A stretch of DNA of 64,000 nucleotides from contig CAMZOI010000002.1 of assembly GCA_947331495.1 (NCBI GenBank), positions 124,001-188,000 on the forward strand, written 5' to 3'. Below, one piece after another: positions 11,457 through 18,475 of this stretch. Both the position numbers and the translations under genes were made by a program. Numbering within the stretch: position 1 is the first letter of the stretch; each line of letters starts with the position of its first letter. The stretch comes from Erythrobacteraceae bacterium Alg239-R51 (lineage in GTDB: Bacteria; Pseudomonadota; Alphaproteobacteria; Sphingomonadales; Sphingomonadaceae). The notes under the pieces were generated by a model. It ran no database searches and had not been told where the DNA came from. It saw only the letters and a program-made list of their open reading frames with translations.

Positions 11457-11546
11457 GGAGCGGTGGCCGAGTGGTCGAAGGCGCACGCCTGGAAAGTGTG
11501 TAAAGGGGCAACTCTTTCGTGGGTTCGAATCCCACCCGCTCCGCCA
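11457..11546 (+). tRNA. tRNA-Ser (anticodon GGA)
   Basis: The 90-nt sequence folds as a class II tRNA: acceptor GGAGCGG pairs with CCGCTCC, a D arm begins TGGCCGAGTGG, the anticodon loop CTGGAAA carries GGA, a long variable arm follows, the T arm has GGTTCGAATCC, and CCA is encoded at 11544-11546. Its last 16 bases serve as the attachment site of the integrated element, so the tRNA stays intact after insertion. Confidence 0.97.
11531..11546. repeat. attL: 16-bp direct repeat within tRNA-Ser
   Basis: CCCACCCGCTCCGCCA, the 3' part of the T arm, the acceptor arm and CCA of tRNA-Ser. It is identical to the copy at 18394-18409, and the bases flanking the repeat differ (T/C here, G/T on the right), which fixes its extent. 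Confidence 0.88.
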
Positions 11547-11681
11547 CTACCCCTTTTCTGGCAATTCCATGCCATTTCATTTTATTAAAATAATTTCTAG
11601 AAATAGGGTCTTAGCGCTCTAGGGCTTGCTTTCGATTTCATCCAATTGCACAAAGTGTGATGGAGCGAATGAGGGAGTGCG

Positions 11682-12860
11682 ATGGCTGGCCTAACTGCTT
11701 TGCAGATTAAGAACGCGAAGCCGGGGCGCTATGCCGATGGCAAAGGGCTGTATCTACTAGTGGGTCCTACAGGCTCCAAAAGTTGGGTGCTAAGGGTCCA
11801 GGTCGACGGACGAAGGCGTGATTACGGCTTAGGCTCACTGGACCTCGTTAAATCGCTGGCAGAAGCCCGACAGAAGGCCGAGGATTGGCGAAAGCTTGCT
11901 AAGGAGGGTCATAACCCCTCAGCCGAAGCAAAGCGCCAGAGAGCCTCTAAAACCACCTTCGAAGATGCAGCGCAGACCTATTACGACGAGCGCAAAGCTA
12001 GCTGGAAAAACGGTAAGCATCAGGACCAGTGGATTAACACATTAAAGACCTATGCTTATCCATCGTTAGGTAAGCTGAGTGTGGACTCCATTGATGCACA
12101 TGACGTTGCGCAAGCGCTCTTGCCCATATGGGGTGACAAAGGGGAAACTGCCCGGAGAGTAAAACAGCGCATCGGAAGCGTTCTCGATTACTCGAATGCC
12201 AAGGGTTGGCGAGCATCAGAAGCACCGATGCGGGCCGTTGGAACGCTTCTAAAAGGCATTAGGCAGCCGAAGCAGAAGAATTTTGCTGCCATGCCTTACA
12301 AGCAGGTGGCATACTTTATGCCGAAGCTAAGCGAGGCAGGTGAAACCGTAGGACGGCTGGGTCTGCAATTCCTCATCCTAACTGCTGCTAGGTCAGGAGA
12401 GGTAAGGGGGGCGCTATGGTCTGAAATTGACCTGAAAAAGAAGGTTTGGACAATTCCCGCTAGCCGAATGAAGATGGACCAGGAGCATCAGGTTCCCCTT
12501 TCCGATGTAGCCCTAGCATTACTGGAAAAAGCCAAGGCTCATTCAGTCGTTAAACCGGAAGGCTTGGTGTTTCCCGGCCTAAAGCGCAAACCTCTTTCCG
12601 ACATGACATTAAGCAAGGTTCTTCGAAGCAATGGCGGCGAAGGTTTCACCGTTCATGGGTTCCGTTCTTCGTTCAAAGACTGGGCATCAGAACAGGGCTA
12701 TCCAAGCGAATGGTCCGAAGCGGCACTAGCCCACACCGTCGCCAATCGTGTCGAAGCTGCATACCGCCGAACGAAATTCCTAGAACAGCGAATCAAGCTG
12801 ATGAAAGCGTGGTCAGATTTCTGCGTTAAAGGCGCCAGATTGCTTGGCCCTAACGTCTAA
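11682..12860 (+). CDS. P4-type tyrosine integrase
   Basis: The 392-aa protein starts with the N-terminal arm-type domain of P4-like integrases (LTALQIKNAKPGRYADGKGLYL), followed by a core-binding domain and the catalytic domain with ARSGEVRGALW (first Arg), HGFRSSFKDW (His-x-x-Arg), LAHTVANRVEAAYRR (His and nucleophilic Tyr). It carries out site-specific integration and excision between the tRNA-Ser 3' end and the element. It lies about 135 bp from attL and reads inward, the usual arrangement; GGGAG precedes the ATG. Confidence 0.95.
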   Translation: MAGLTALQIKNAKPGRYADGKGLYLLVGPTGSKSWVLRVQVDGRRRDYGLGSLDLVKSLAEARQKAEDWRKLAKEGHNPSAEAKRQRASKTTFEDAAQTYYDERKASWKNGKHQDQWINTLKTYAYPSLGKLSVDSIDAHDVAQALLPIWGDKGETARRVKQRIGSVLDYSNAKGWRASEAPMRAVGTLLKGIRQPKQKNFAAMPYKQVAYFMPKLSEAGETVGRLGLQFLILTAARSGEVRGALWSEIDLKKKVWTIPASRMKMDQEHQVPLSDVALALLEKAKAHSVVKPEGLVFPGLKRKPLSDMTLSKVLRSNGGEGFTVHGFRSSFKDWASEQGYPSEWSEAALAHTVANRVEAAYRRTKFLEQRIKLMKAWSDFCVKGARLLGPNV

Positions 12861-13211: not shown

Positions 13212-13991
13212 ATGCTTCCTACGCGTCGAAAAAGGGCCTCATATCCCCGAAGGAAACGAGAGGCGATGAAAGCAAGGCGAGATACGCTAAGCCTAGAGTA
13301 TCTGCGCTACGTAAGGGACCTTGCTAAAAGCGAAATGGCCAGTCCTTCGCTACCCTTTACAGTATATAGTTCACCATACTTCCCTCTTTCATATCAATTT
13401 AAAGAGAAAATCCATAAGGATGGTAAGGTTAGCTACGAATACCATGAATCACCAATGCCAAGCTGGAATGATTTGCTTATTAAAACTAAGGTTTCTCTAT
13501 TTCAGCTAATGAGTGAAGAGTGGAATAAATCACTCTATGCTTTTCATATCAAGATACATCCTGATTTAATCAAGGATTGGTCCGATGAGAGCATAATTCA
13601 TAGAATGGGAAAAAGAGTCAGGCGTAGGCTCAATGCCTTAGGCCACCTTCCAAGCCGTCATTTCTTTGTCGTTGAAGCTCATAGCAAAGAGGGCGAGGCA
13701 GTGGCTCCCCATATCCATGGCATGGCGATGGTAGGGGATGAAAATCAAGCGCGTGCGGTAAAGGAAGCGATGAAGGAAGCTGCTGGGCAGAATAGTGGTG
13801 GCAGAAAGAGCCTTCACAAAGGAAGCAAGGGCGAATTTTGCTATCACAAAACTGGCAAATCTTATCCCGGTTACATGCTTAAGCACAAAAAGAAGGGTGC
13901 AATGATGTTTGGTAGGAAGTCTTACGTTTTTTCCCGACCAGCAAACCAAATGACCCGTAGCTTCTATGAATTCATCACTGGCCAAACGTGA
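13212..13991 (+). CDS. Putative HUH-type replication initiator
   Basis: The 259-aa basic protein has a metal-binding HUH motif, HIH at residues 167-169 within APHIHGMAM, preceded by the strand FFVVEAH, and a downstream Y-x-x-K (Y221-M-L-K224) that fits the catalytic-tyrosine motif of rolling-circle Rep proteins. An earlier strand, YAFHIKIHP (109-117), could be motif 1. Such enzymes nick one strand at an origin and stay covalently attached to the 5' end. It follows the AlpA-like gene by 6 nt, a regulator-rep layout common in small integrative elements. A second possible start is ATG 13266, which has a better ribosome site. I infer the family from motifs only. Confidence 0.6.
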   Translation: MLPTRRKRASYPRRKREAMKARRDTLSLEYLRYVRDLAKSEMASPSLPFTVYSSPYFPLSYQFKEKIHKDGKVSYEYHESPMPSWNDLLIKTKVSLFQLMSEEWNKSLYAFHIKIHPDLIKDWSDESIIHRMGKRVRRRLNALGHLPSRHFFVVEAHSKEGEAVAPHIHGMAMVGDENQARAVKEAMKEAAGQNSGGRKSLHKGSKGEFCYHKTGKSYPGYMLKHKKKGAMMFGRKSYVFSRPANQMTRSFYEFITGQT

Positions 13992-14562: not shown

Positions 14563-15159
14563 ATGAAGCGTTTTAGACTATTGTTGGTAGCCGTTTTGTT
14601 ATTCGGATACGTTTCTCCAGCGCATTCCCAAGGTTGGAATTTGGGCGTGGAGCGGGAATACACTCCGGGTAGATACGCGAAACTCTTAAGCGTTTTCGAA
14701 GGGTGGCGGTTGTGGCGATTTGAGTCGGTGTCGGGTGTCGATTGTAGGGCAGTTAAACCTGCAATTGGGAAGCCTCACCCTGTTCCCGGCGGCAATACTA
14801 CCATGATGGAAGGCGCACCCCCTTTTGTCGTGATGAATTATGACCATGAAGGAAAATTAGTCTGGGAGTTTGAGGGTGAGTTTGGAGATACAGGTTCAAT
14901 CGACTGGCGCAGGGAAAATGAGAGGTTCTACACACGTTACTTGCCGTTTCAAATTAGCGACATGGAGCGAAGGATTCTTGATGGGCAGTTTGTAGATACT
15001 CTTGCCCATCTCGATGGTGAAACGATTAGCGTTCTTATTATCACTTGGGAATATCCCTCGCCTCTTTACATCAACGAATCAAAGTTGACCGCCAAGTTTA
15101 ATTTCTTGGGACTTAGCGAAATGATAAAAGCATTAAAGGAGTGCGAAATCCGAGATTAA
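14563..15159 (+). CDS. Secreted protein of unknown function carried by the element
   Basis: The 198-aa product has a clear Sec signal peptide (basic MKRFR, then a hydrophobic stretch to about residue 20, cleavage near AHSQG). The mature part is rich in aromatic and acidic residues (WRLWRFESVSG, FVVMNYDHEGKLVWEFEG) and has two cysteines (near residues 59 and 194) that could form a disulfide. I recognise no family. It is preceded by its own noncoding region and followed by the resolvase res-like region, so it looks like an independently expressed cargo gene, possibly acting in the periplasm. Confidence 0.75.
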   Translation: MKRFRLLLVAVLLFGYVSPAHSQGWNLGVEREYTPGRYAKLLSVFEGWRLWRFESVSGVDCRAVKPAIGKPHPVPGGNTTMMEGAPPFVVMNYDHEGKLVWEFEGEFGDTGSIDWRRENERFYTRYLPFQISDMERRILDGQFVDTLAHLDGETISVLIITWEYPSPLYINESKLTAKFNFLGLSEMIKALKECEIRD

Positions 15160-15210: not shown

Positions 15211-15322
15211 GCTCAAAACTTGTAAGCTTTGAGCCAACCAATAACAGATATGAGAAAAAAGCTCAAAAGATAGTAGACTCCGTTTTGAACCTAGCTCATA
15301 AAGCAACGTATAACTTATGAGC
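15211..15322. promoter_or_regulatory. res-like site: three inverted repeats upstream of the resolvase
   Basis: Three imperfect palindromes begin with GCTCA: 15211-15234 (arms GCTCAAA/TTTGAGC), 15261-15290 (GCTCAAAA/TTTTGAAC) and 15294-15322 (GCTCATAA/TTATGAGC). Their centres are about 53 and 33 bp apart, similar to subsites I, II and III of Tn3-family res sites, and the gene starts just after the third. It would be both the recombination site and the autoregulatory operator. Confidence 0.6.
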
Positions 15323-15337
15323 GAGTCGGAGTTGAAT

Positions 15338-15916
15338 ATGAGCCGCATTGCATATTTCAGGGTGTCTACAGAATCCCAAAGCATCGAAAGCCAGCGCAAG
15401 GCGCTCGGTGGCAGCTTCGACAAAGAGTTCAAAGACGAAGGCGTATCTGGTGCGACAAGGGCCGTTGATAGGCCAGGCTTCGCTGAGCTACTATCCTATG
15501 TGCGTGAAGGCGATACAATATGCATAACGGCAATTGACCGGCTGGGCCGCGACGCACTCGACGTGCAAAGCGTTGTCCGTGACCTTCTGGCCAAAAGTGT
15601 CACCATCGATGTGCAGGGGTTAGGACCAATCGCCAAAGGTGTTGGCGAGCTTGTCGCAGCCGTGCTTGCCCAGATCGCAGATATGGAACGGCAGCGTATC
15701 AAGGAACGCTGCGATGCAGGTAGGGCGGCAGCTAGAGCTTCGCTCGCTGCAAGGGGAAGAACCCATAGGGGCAAAGCTAGCCTAGGGCGTCCTTTCGCTG
15801 CTGATGCTTCTGCTGTGGCTCAGTGGCGCAAGAACAATGCCGCGAGCATCGCCAAGACAGCGCAGGAGTTTGGATTGTCTGCTGCTACGGTAAAACGGTA
15901 TTGCGCGAGGGCTTAA
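15338..15916 (+). CDS. Serine recombinase (resolvase/invertase family)
   Basis: The 192-aa protein has the resolvase catalytic domain: YFRVST with the nucleophile Ser at position 10, then DRPGFAEL, ITAIDRLGRDALD and the Q/R-rich ADMERQRIKER helix, and a C-terminal helix-turn-helix (IAKTAQEFGLSAATVKRY). I start at ATG 15338, which has GGAG about 7 nt upstream; the in-frame ATG at 15317 lies inside the third inverted repeat. It probably resolves multimers of the element or regulates its own expression through the upstream repeats. Confidence 0.92.
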   Translation: MSRIAYFRVSTESQSIESQRKALGGSFDKEFKDEGVSGATRAVDRPGFAELLSYVREGDTICITAIDRLGRDALDVQSVVRDLLAKSVTIDVQGLGPIAKGVGELVAAVLAQIADMERQRIKERCDAGRAAARASLAARGRTHRGKASLGRPFAADASAVAQWRKNNAASIAKTAQEFGLSAATVKRYCARA

Positions 15917-15967: not shown

Positions 15968-17071
15968 TTATCGACCGGACTTGCGTCTATTGTCATCCCT
16001 ACAAAGCATCTGACAATTATTAGGAATAGTTTTGCCCCCCTCATGCCAAGGCGTTATGTGGTCCGCTTCCATTTGGCTGATTTCGAAACGCTCATCACAT
16101 ACCGGGCAAACGCCATTCTGTCGCTCATAGGCCTCTCGCTTCTGTTTCGGGTTGAAGGACCGAATATTTAGGTGGTTCTCTTTCCCAGTGAGAAGATACG
16201 GGAAGATTCCCTTCTTGTTGGTAACCTCCTCATCCTCCATCAAAGTGCGAACCTCCTGCTCAAGGCGTTTCGGGTCAAAGCTTTCGTTCTTGAATTGATT
16301 GTAGAGCTCTCCCCACTGGACGCCTTTCATCTCTTTTCGATAGTTGGGAAAGAGCCCTTCCACCCATTCAATTACACCACGAAAAAATTCCCAAATCTCC
16401 TCAGCTCCTTCCCAATTTTGTCGCTCTGACATGTAGCCATCGATGCTGCCCTGTTCTGAGTGCCACTTTATCGCGGTTTCAAGGTAGTCTTGCCGAATTA
16501 CAGAGCCACTGAGGTATCTGCTTCCTATGCCGTAAGCAGGACAATTGCTTTTACTGAAATACCGCTTAGCGTCGGAAACCCACGGTCCGTGGAACACAGC
16601 GTTCCGAAGCTCTTGGTTGGTTAATTCCTCCCCCGCGATATTAATAGTTTTAAACCATTCAAGCTTTTCACTGTCCGACCCACTACACAAGTAGACCATA
16701 AGCTTATAATCAAGTAGACGGCTCTGCTCATCTTTTTGAAGATTATGAAAGGCCCTCTTCTCATCGAAGCTGCCAAGTTGGACTGAGAAGTCACCCTCTA
16801 TAAACTGACATAGCGAGATAGTTCTCTGCTGCCCGTCAATTACTTCAAAGCCCCCATCATCACGAACAGACCAATACATTACATTCAAGGGGAAGCCCTT
16901 CGAAGCGGTATCAATGACAGCGTCGCGCTGACTTCCGCTATATATAAATTCACGCTGATATGGCGGTCGTATGTCTAGGGCGCCTCCATAGCCAAATACT
17001 CCCTCCTCATCATTATCTTCGTAGCCATTCGCCAGCTCTCGAACAGCGATTTCCCTGAATTCAATCCTCAT
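15968..17071 (-). CDS. DUF262 (ParB-like)-HNH nuclease, restriction partner of the methyltransferase
   Basis: This 367-aa protein joins an N-terminal DUF262 domain, with PPYQR (36-40) and DGQQR (79-83), to a C-terminal HNH nuclease with zinc cysteines CPVC (322-325) and C353/C357, the core ADHITPWHEGG (His 338) and NNCQMLCRDDNRRKS. DUF262 is the NTP-hydrolysing or sensing module of modification-dependent nucleases such as GmrS and SspE, and HNH cuts DNA. Its ATG overlaps the stop of the upstream methyltransferase gene (ATGA, 17071-17068), so the two are translationally coupled. I infer a restriction subunit replacing the classical EcoRI-type endonuclease; all catalytic residues appear present. 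Confidence 0.85.
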   Translation of the reverse strand: MRIEFREIAVRELANGYEDNDEEGVFGYGGALDIRPPYQREFIYSGSQRDAVIDTASKGFPLNVMYWSVRDDGGFEVIDGQQRTISLCQFIEGDFSVQLGSFDEKRAFHNLQKDEQSRLLDYKLMVYLCSGSDSEKLEWFKTINIAGEELTNQELRNAVFHGPWVSDAKRYFSKSNCPAYGIGSRYLSGSVIRQDYLETAIKWHSEQGSIDGYMSERQNWEGAEEIWEFFRGVIEWVEGLFPNYRKEMKGVQWGELYNQFKNESFDPKRLEQEVRTLMEDEEVTNKKGIFPYLLTGKENHLNIRSFNPKQKREAYERQNGVCPVCDERFEISQMEADHITPWHEGGKTIPNNCQMLCRDDNRRKSGR

Positions 17072-18060
17072 AGGTCTTTGTTCCTAATCACAATTCGAGC
17101 GTAAATTTCTTTCCCGTCTATCCTAAAGCGGCTCACTCTTCCGGTTAATGCTTCCACCAATGGACGGTCAATGCCAACAATTTCGAATTGGTCGGGATTG
17201 TATTTGTTCATAAATGTGATGGGCACGCCCATCATTCCAGAAAAGTCCATCGGAATGTCGTTGGTTTTGGAAACCTCTATCGCATCAAAGTTGTCATACT
17301 TAGGGTAGTGCTGAGGTTCGTATTTCTTATATAAAATCAATCTCTCATGACGTTTCTTAATATCGAGATTAGTGAACCAGCAGGTATTATTCGAAGATAC
17401 GATTTTATTTCCATCGTCATCAAGACGAGCTTCGGTGCCGTGAAGTGGATAATGCGGAGGAACAATAAAGCCAGAAAAATTGCGATTGCTATTTACGCCT
17501 ATCCAAATCTTGTTGTCCTTGATAAGTTCGAAAATATCTTTGTAAGCAATCGCATTCCATGTCCCGACAATTAGAAAGTTTTTATCATACCTAATTAATT
17601 GTTCAACATATTCTCGGAATAACGAGAACGGAGGGTTGGTAACCACGACATCGGATTGTTTGAGGAGACTGATGCATTCCTCGCTTCGAAAGTCTCCGTC
17701 TCCTTTCAGGCGCTTGATGCCGATCTCATCAGGGTCTGGAACTCGATTTCCATTTTTATCGCCTTCATATTCCAGAAAAATAGCTTGGTCCTCTTGGTGT
17801 CTGCTGAACAGCTCCATGTCCTGATTTTTATAACACGTCGTTATCAGCTTTCGCAGGCCTAGCTTTTCAAAGTTATATGAAAAATAATGGAAAAAGTTGC
17901 TAACCCTTGGGTCATCGCAGTTACAAAATACCGTTACGTCCTTGAAGTGATGTTTATAATGCCTCAGTTCCTTTTCGATATCAGAAAGCACAGTATAAAA
18001 CTCGTCACTCTTAGACTTCCGAGCTTTGCGAAGAACTGCGTTGGTTGCTTTACGAGCCAC
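17068..18060 (-). CDS. EcoRI-family adenine-specific DNA methyltransferase
   Basis: The 330-aa protein closely resembles M.EcoRI in its N-terminal half: ARKATNAVLRKARKSKSDEFY, then CNCDDPRVSNFF and FEKLGLRKLI. It has the adenine methyltransferase motif NPPF at 142-145 (VVVTNPPFSLF). It would transfer a methyl group from S-adenosylmethionine to N6 of adenine in a short target, protecting host DNA. The start is GTG at 18060 with no obvious ribosome site, possibly giving low expression. It is the first gene of a two-gene minus-strand unit with the DUF262-HNH gene, at the distal end of the element. The target sequence cannot be read from the protein. Confidence 0.9.
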   Translation of the reverse strand: MARKATNAVLRKARKSKSDEFYTVLSDIEKELRHYKHHFKDVTVFCNCDDPRVSNFFHYFSYNFEKLGLRKLITTCYKNQDMELFSRHQEDQAIFLEYEGDKNGNRVPDPDEIGIKRLKGDGDFRSEECISLLKQSDVVVTNPPFSLFREYVEQLIRYDKNFLIVGTWNAIAYKDIFELIKDNKIWIGVNSNRNFSGFIVPPHYPLHGTEARLDDDGNKIVSSNNTCWFTNLDIKKRHERLILYKKYEPQHYPKYDNFDAIEVSKTNDIPMDFSGMMGVPITFMNKYNPDQFEIVGIDRPLVEALTGRVSRFRIDGKEIYARIVIRNKDL

Positions 18061-18393: not shown

Positions 18394-18409
18394 CCCACCC
18401 GCTCCGCCA
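18394..18409. repeat. attR: 16-bp direct repeat
   Basis: Second copy of CCCACCCGCTCCGCCA, identical to the tRNA-Ser 3' end at 11531-11546. Base composition returns to the GC-rich chromosomal style within a few tens of bases to the right, marking the element's end. Confidence 0.88.
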
Positions 18410-18475
18410 TTATTTTCACCAAGTCGAACCAGCCGCGCCGGATTGCTACGGCGCTGACTGGTCCAGGCGGCGGTT

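Follow-up and report, generated by a model that had tools for sequence, protein, structure and literature searches.

Predicted target-reading modules exchanged and switched in EcoRI-family methyltransferases beside a constant DUF262-HNH partner

When an EcoRI-family methyltransferase is not paired with an EcoRI endonuclease, which of its gene pair chooses the DNA to be cut? A 64,000-nucleotide stretch of the genome of Erythrobacteraceae bacterium Alg239-R51 (contig CAMZOI010000002.1, positions 124,001 to 188,000; hereafter the window) raises this question. In it, a predicted adenine methyltransferase (M) of the EcoRI family adjoins a protein (R) with both a DUF262 (GmrSD_N) domain and an HNH nuclease domain. 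A preliminary description of this DNA saw in the two a candidate unconventional restriction-modification (R-M) system with a DUF262-HNH protein in place of R.EcoRI, and our Pfam search agrees, giving no match to the EcoRI endonuclease family in R.

The gene pair itself is already catalogued. Both proteins match type II models of PADLOC over nearly their full length (R, REase_II PDLC03418, 1.1e-146; M, MTase_II PDLC03297, 2.1e-131), models that presumably derive from REBASE. What appears to be new, and was not covered by the preliminary description, is the behaviour of M, whose predicted specificity modules undergo exchange, inversion and frame switching beside an unvarying R. The open-access literature yielded nothing on this pair, on module exchange in it or on three-frame modules, subscription journals and REBASE lying outside that search.

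Module exchange beside a constant R

Comparison of 207 distinct M-R pairs, many of them from metagenomes, reveals two variable stretches in the otherwise conserved core of M, here called target-recognition domains (TRD1 and TRD2; window residues in Table 1). Five incomplete pairs were dropped from the TRD comparisons, leaving 202; the TRD boundaries, the 50% clusters and the 60% cut-offs are our own choices. Clustered at 50% identity, the complete pairs hold 32 types of TRD1 and 75 of TRD2, which occur in 138 combinations. Correlation with R identity is high for the M core (r 0.74) and low for TRD1 (0.16) and TRD2 (0.12).

Closely related R proteins make the pattern plain. Ten comparisons involve R proteins at least 95% identical, and at the 60% cut-off seven of these share neither TRD, one shares TRD2 only and two share both; counted by R lineage, the TRDs changed in six and stayed unchanged in two. 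R proteins that are 97-100% identical adjoin M proteins with unrelated modules. At the DNA level, loci L058 and L062 have an R identity of 0.978 and flanking blocks of M at 0.93-0.99, with TRD1 at 0.40 and TRD2 at 0.42. Five further DNA comparisons give similarly low values for TRD1, and the L118/L134 comparison retains TRD2 at 0.93. This DNA pattern shows block replacement of the TRDs.

The wider phylogeny agrees in direction. On the R tree, TRD1 type changes 78 times (shuffled mean 88.8, lowest shuffle 80, minimum possible 10) and TRD2 type 73 times (shuffled mean 88.3, lowest shuffle 80, minimum possible 17). The converse case is also found, L170 and L257 sharing both TRDs with R proteins only 37% identical. 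Because both TRDs of L058 are M.EcoRI-like (77% and 83%), its M should mark GAATTC. The window shares the TRD1 type alone with M.EcoRI, and both window TRD types recur together in L054 (82% and 83%); its TRD2 type is common to L053, L054, L101 and L125. We expect the target of the window pair to match that of M.EcoRI in the portion that TRD1 reads and to depart from it in the portion that TRD2 reads.

M genes linked to R.EcoRI provide a control. On plasmids and in viruses, such M genes carry a single TRD1 type and a single TRD2 type. Among seven usable R.EcoRI-M systems with R 57-92% identical, which form one clade and hence one evolutionary trial, both TRDs are at least 77% identical in 21 of 21 comparisons; for DUF262 pairs in the equal range of R identity, both TRDs reach at least 60% in 52 of 9,952, the TRDs being cut by pattern in the control and by alignment column in the DUF262 set. 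The seven were taken from 13 R.EcoRI-linked loci. Left out were L217 and L229, where R is partial, L226, whose R of 200 aa falls at the length limit, L254, with a cut M, and L291 and L292, whose TRD2 escaped the pattern and is of the same type by eye.

An approximate tree of the M core places all 13 R.EcoRI-linked M proteins and four orphans in one group (local support 83; next node 99), which under a midpoint root is nested within the DUF262-linked M proteins. Setting the orphans aside, this requires one partner change. If the root is right, R.EcoRI would have replaced the DUF262-HNH partner once. The preliminary description had a DUF262 module apparently taking over the place of the EcoRI nuclease; the opposite direction now seems more likely, with the R.EcoRI-linked clade lying inside the DUF262-linked ones. 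Five M proteins on viral contigs (L222, L225, L244, L253 and L269) have both M.EcoRI-type TRDs and no R.EcoRI match, and perhaps guard against EcoRI.

Inverted cassettes and three-frame ends of TRD2

In eight of the 207 distinct pairs, an alternative TRD2 is encoded by an open reading frame (ORF) that lies on the opposite strand immediately after M. These silent cassettes are found in L027, L035, L036, L176, L180, L182, L185 and L257, with two copies in each of the first three. Exact inverted repeats of 15-21 nt sit at the QFEI codons just ahead of TRD2, against a median of 9 for the longest such repeat in 199 other loci (99th percentile 13, maximum 16). Inverting the segment by script gave an intact M with another TRD2 in seven of the eight loci tried, a set that leaves out L180 and in which L173 gave none. 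The R proteins of L027 and L036 are 65% identical; the three TRD2 types of these two loci are the same, yet the loci differ in which of them occupies the expressed position. In L176, L182 and L257, the silent copy is an M.EcoRI-type TRD2.

A second arrangement involves simple repeats, which lie in the TRD2 part of eight of 237 distinct M genes. In four of the 237, all three frames after the repeat reach the closing motif of the family: L032 (GAACA x7), L041 (CA x21), L059 (GAGAA x12) and L123 (G x10). L059 and L123 come from named cultures, Riemerella columbina DSM 16469 and Fibrobacter intestinalis ATCC 43854. Two frames reach the motif in L424 and L311, and the M frame alone does so in L304 and L317. 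The three-frame ends are staggered; in L032 they lie 22, 46 and 69 codons past the repeat. Alternative frames of genes without a simple repeat contain the closing motif in one case of 458, and among 20,000 codon shuffles of the four genes, both alternative frames acquired it 0, 0, 1 and 0 times.

The gene pair, its carrier element and its spread

The coupling of an M.EcoRI-like enzyme to a DUF262-HNH protein by an ATGA overlap, as first described, is borne out: both ORFs are intact and Pfam agrees. M matches EcoRI_methylase PF13651 (E 6e-135, residues 10-328) with 450 bits against a curated cut-off of 26.4 and over positions 2-345 of the 345-position profile, which makes it a member of the family; it is 55% identical to M.EcoRI. 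R matches GmrSD_N PF03235 (E 2e-17) and, at its C-terminus, HNH PF01844 (E 1e-12) and HNH_5, and Pfam at E 0.001 lists no DUF1524 nuclease domain for it.

Table 1. Features of the gene pair and its carrier element, in window positions
Feature	Position	Strand	Remarks
M, EcoRI-family adenine methyltransferase	17068..18060	minus	330 aa, GTG start
R, DUF262 (GmrSD_N) + HNH protein	15968..17071	minus	367 aa, ATG start
ATGA overlap, M stop / R start	17068..17071	minus	4 nt, from sequence
TRD1, variable module of M, residues 189-227	17380..17496	minus	M.EcoRI type, 63% identical
TRD2, variable module of M, residues 295-319	17104..17178	minus	type differs from that of M.EcoRI
NPPF catalytic motif of M, residues 142-145	17626..17637	minus	in 206/207 relatives
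DGQQR, predicted NTP-binding motif of R, residues 79-83	16823..16837	minus	in 207/207 relatives
HNH nuclease domain of R, residues 322-365	15977..16108	minus	
Left attachment repeat, 3' end of tRNA-Ser(GGA) + 3 bases	11531..11549	plus	
Right attachment repeat	18394..18412	plus	95% identical to left
Tyrosine integrase of element	11682..12860	plus	PF00589, PF22022, PF13356

The motifs had been called intact, which fits DGQQR, NPPF and the HNH histidine (206 of the 207 aligned relatives); for the fourth zinc ligand the wording has to change, as this position is Asp in the window. Since Cys (89), Asp (63) and His (51) all occur there across the 207 relatives, the zinc site still looks usable. Sequence searches of the PDB returned only HNH matches for R (best 4h9d, E 0.0014) and nothing convincing for M (best a collagen adhesin, E 0.005). 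Fold matches barely cover the C-terminal third of M, past residue 233; the top structural match of R is BrxU.

The pair is cargo of an integrative element of 6.9 kb at a tRNA-Ser site, whose two ends are occupied by the integrase and by the pair, in line with the distal position first proposed. A direct repeat of 19 nt of the tRNA-Ser 3' end bounds both sides. Among ten genomes of the same genus, the tRNA stretch is matched in all ten and the far flank, with an aldehyde dehydrogenase gene, gives a long match in seven; the element interior gives two matches only, each of at most 90 bases. Besides the integrase, the other ORFs scanned against Pfam comprise a serine resolvase/invertase-domain gene (15317-15916, plus strand), which directly adjoins R and is convergent with it, and two ORFs (13212-13991 and 14563-15159, both plus strand) with no Pfam match at E 1. 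A search of the window found no TRD-like ORF outside M and no silent or inverted TRD copy that would tie the resolvase/invertase to switching.

Our scans keep the best 80 matches and are not a census. Scanning turned up R in 9 of the 385 genomes searched from the class, and M in 4 of the 398 from the phylum; plasmid records match R in 113 cases (43 over at least 80% of R) and M in 77. By their record titles, the best 80 genome loci span many phyla and are mostly metagenome-assembled, including Bacteroidota, Acidobacteria, Campylobacterota, Actinomycetota, Saccharibacteria, Clostridia and one archaeal bin.

The preliminary description would have fallen had the pairing not been conserved; M and R in fact occur together in 77 of 80 genome loci and 97 of 100 viral loci. 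In three viral loci and in L098, all without a full pair, R lies at the end of its contig, and L120 has only pieces of M, also at a contig end. Two loci have R with neither M nor a contig end beside it. One is L057 (1421-5086), a true M-less R, where a C5-methylase and an NgoFVII-type nuclease stand instead. The other is L396 (5379-6629, minus strand), where no recognisable M is among the neighbours listed and the R-like gene has its HNH Asp-His pair replaced, so that the HNH motif is lost and DUF262 is the sole recognised domain. Searched from the side of M, the best 80 viral loci comprise 48 with R at the threshold used, 8 with an R.EcoRI homologue, 4 with a weak or partial R match and 20 with neither; a gene-by-gene inspection covered L057 and 24 of the 32 M loci that lack a full R. 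The pairing of M and R is close to obligate, and R appears tied to the PF13651 methylase core.

Several loci depart from the simple two-gene layout. Two M genes accompany a single R in L138, L193, L307 and L324. Genes stand between M and R in L036, L062, L124, L080 and L100, namely Bro-N genes in three of these loci, a Fic gene in L080 and a DUF6602 gene in L100; Bro-N and Fic genes occur in hsd operons too. The first residues of the L057 C5-methylase resemble the N-terminus of R. On a Lactiplantibacillus plasmid, L289 (2180-4282) encodes a 700-aa fusion of an EcoRI-type adenine methylase and a C5-cytosine methylase. EcoRI-family nucleases on Acinetobacter and Paracoccus plasmids (L293, L294) adjoin genes annotated as other adenine methylases. 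Elsewhere in the host genome, beyond the window, an AAA gene accompanies a second DUF262 gene (L398, 2104-4340), and these match PADLOC NsnA (6e-117) and NsnB (4e-94); we take Nsn in PADLOC names to be Menshen.

How M and R may act together

On balance, the pair is probably a two-gene R-M system in which M both marks and picks the target, and a universal, NTP-dependent R, guided by M, cleaves DNA that lacks the modification. TRD1 and TRD2 would serve M as separate readers of the sequence in which it methylates an adenine, and R would be a general DUF262-HNH nuclease without a sequence choice of its own. Standing on an unmodified target, M would recruit or license R; R would then commit through its DGQQR NTPase, and its HNH domain would cut or nick the unmodified DNA, host DNA being spared through the mark of M. 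From the protein families we infer N6-adenine methylation, NTP use and DNA cleavage by the pair, and R may act with M as a complex on unmodified DNA. R can hardly hold a specificity of its own matched to M, because it stays constant while both partner TRDs change. Should the two modules recognise separate portions of the target, most TRD combinations would give a non-palindromic target with a mark on one strand.

TRD exchange and inversion are known in type I systems, and TRD exchange is known in type III. Like type I systems with hsdS inversion, which have two TRDs, domain exchange, inversion of silent TRD copies and a constant nuclease, the relatives of the window pair have exchangeable TRDs beside a constant nuclease. 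Unlike them, the present system gives no HsdS, HsdM or HsdR matches, combines methylase and target reading in one protein, and the matches found for R include no helicase domain. Simple repeats inside a methylase gene are also a feature of phase-variable mod and type IIG genes; there the repeats are reported to switch expression, whereas here three frames each hold a TRD2 end. In BREX, the methylase BrxX/PglX senses unmethylated sites and triggers defence (PMC11842806), although in a large multi-protein complex rather than from two genes.

Several points weigh against an R directed by M. The exchange and switching of TRDs are seen in relatives and not in the window pair. We found no biochemistry of any family member, and no natural M-R fusion among the loci examined gene by gene. 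DUF262 occurs in effectors such as GmrSD, BrxU and SspE, and these relatives of known function read modified DNA. We looked in the M core for a patch specific to the partner, defined as columns conserved in DUF262-linked M proteins and lost in R.EcoRI-linked or orphan ones; none emerged, which lends no support to an R-binding surface on M. Of 103 conserved columns, 3 are changed in the R.EcoRI-linked clade, 0-3 in fifteen clades of DUF262-linked M proteins, 14-18 in three nested subsets of a single deep clade, and none in 14 other orphan M proteins. Target avoidance was dropped as evidence, GAATTC occurring 1,073 times in the 2.9 Mb genome and being uninformative for a pair without a known target.

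A different division of labour, which we regard as unlikely and yet as the most serious competitor, would agree with the empty patch search. In this alternative, R would bind no M and would sense N6-methyladenine on host DNA whatever the surrounding sequence; its NTPase would be stimulated, and its HNH domain licensed to nick unmarked DNA. SspE offers a close precedent, as it joins a DUF262 domain with DGQQR to an HNH nuclease and is paired with a DNA-marking enzyme, DGQQR being needed for its GTPase (PMC13251355). The mark of the Ssp system is phosphorothioation by SspBCD, whereas here it would come from an adenine methylase with exchangeable TRDs; the neighbour of R is a PF13651 protein and not SspBCD, and the HNH domain of R is PF01844. 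Across about 177 loci, R adjoins PF13651 methylases and not other adenine methylases, a tie for which a bare N6-methyladenine sensor would have no need. Because R is tied to one methylase core and BREX offers a precedent, we favour an R directed by M over one that senses the mark.

Three further readings fare much worse. A classical type IIP system, in which R itself reads the same short palindrome as M does, would suit the PADLOC assignment of both proteins to type II and the membership of M in the M.EcoRI family. The partner, however, is a GmrSD_N-HNH protein and not of R.EcoRI type, TRD2 differs, and near-identical R proteins stand beside M proteins with unrelated TRDs, whereas R.EcoRI-linked M proteins retain theirs. 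Judged on the relatives, this exchange at constant R, set against the fixed TRDs of the R.EcoRI control, speaks against a common target of R and M, and we rejected the type IIP reading as very improbable.

We give equally little credence to a type IV-like R that cuts modified foreign DNA beside an M of separate use. DUF262 is indeed the domain of GmrSD and BrxU, R shares DUF262 with DGQQR with the GmrSD family, and BrxU is the top structural match. Those enzymes act on modified cytosines without a paired methylase, whereas this R, of 367 aa, adjoins M with a near-obligate pairing and a translational overlap and would have to spare the N6-methyladenine of its own M; its nuclease domain is HNH PF01844, with no DUF1524 match. 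No more credible is a constant specificity with variable segments that read no target and serve to escape phage inhibitors: such pressure can shape variable surface segments, but here discrete modules recur across distant backgrounds, as in L170 and L257, and are fixed exactly where the partner is the sequence-reading R.EcoRI.

A broader and more tentative proposal, to which we give slightly less than an even chance, concerns the whole family. The EcoRI-methylase family may serve chiefly to read targets for a single universal DUF262-HNH nuclease, as a platform that is combinatorial and switchable, its two modules mixed freely and its TRD2 switched by DNA inversion in some members and in others by repeat slippage among three TRD2 ends, one per reading frame. 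Textbook EcoRI would then be an offshoot that acquired a sequence-reading nuclease once, after which its modules were frozen. Targets would be mostly non-palindromic with a single-strand mark, and R would have to handle freshly replicated host DNA.

If M does direct R, a single nuclease would follow the reading of its methylase, so that specificity could shift in one step with the two enzymes still matched and the cell surviving. Inverted cassettes and three-frame TRD2 ends would offer fast routes to an altered restriction barrier. The EcoRI methylase family would join type I and BREX systems in its logic, and the pair would provide a compact two-gene model for mark-controlled DUF262 nucleases, with modules that could be mapped target by target.
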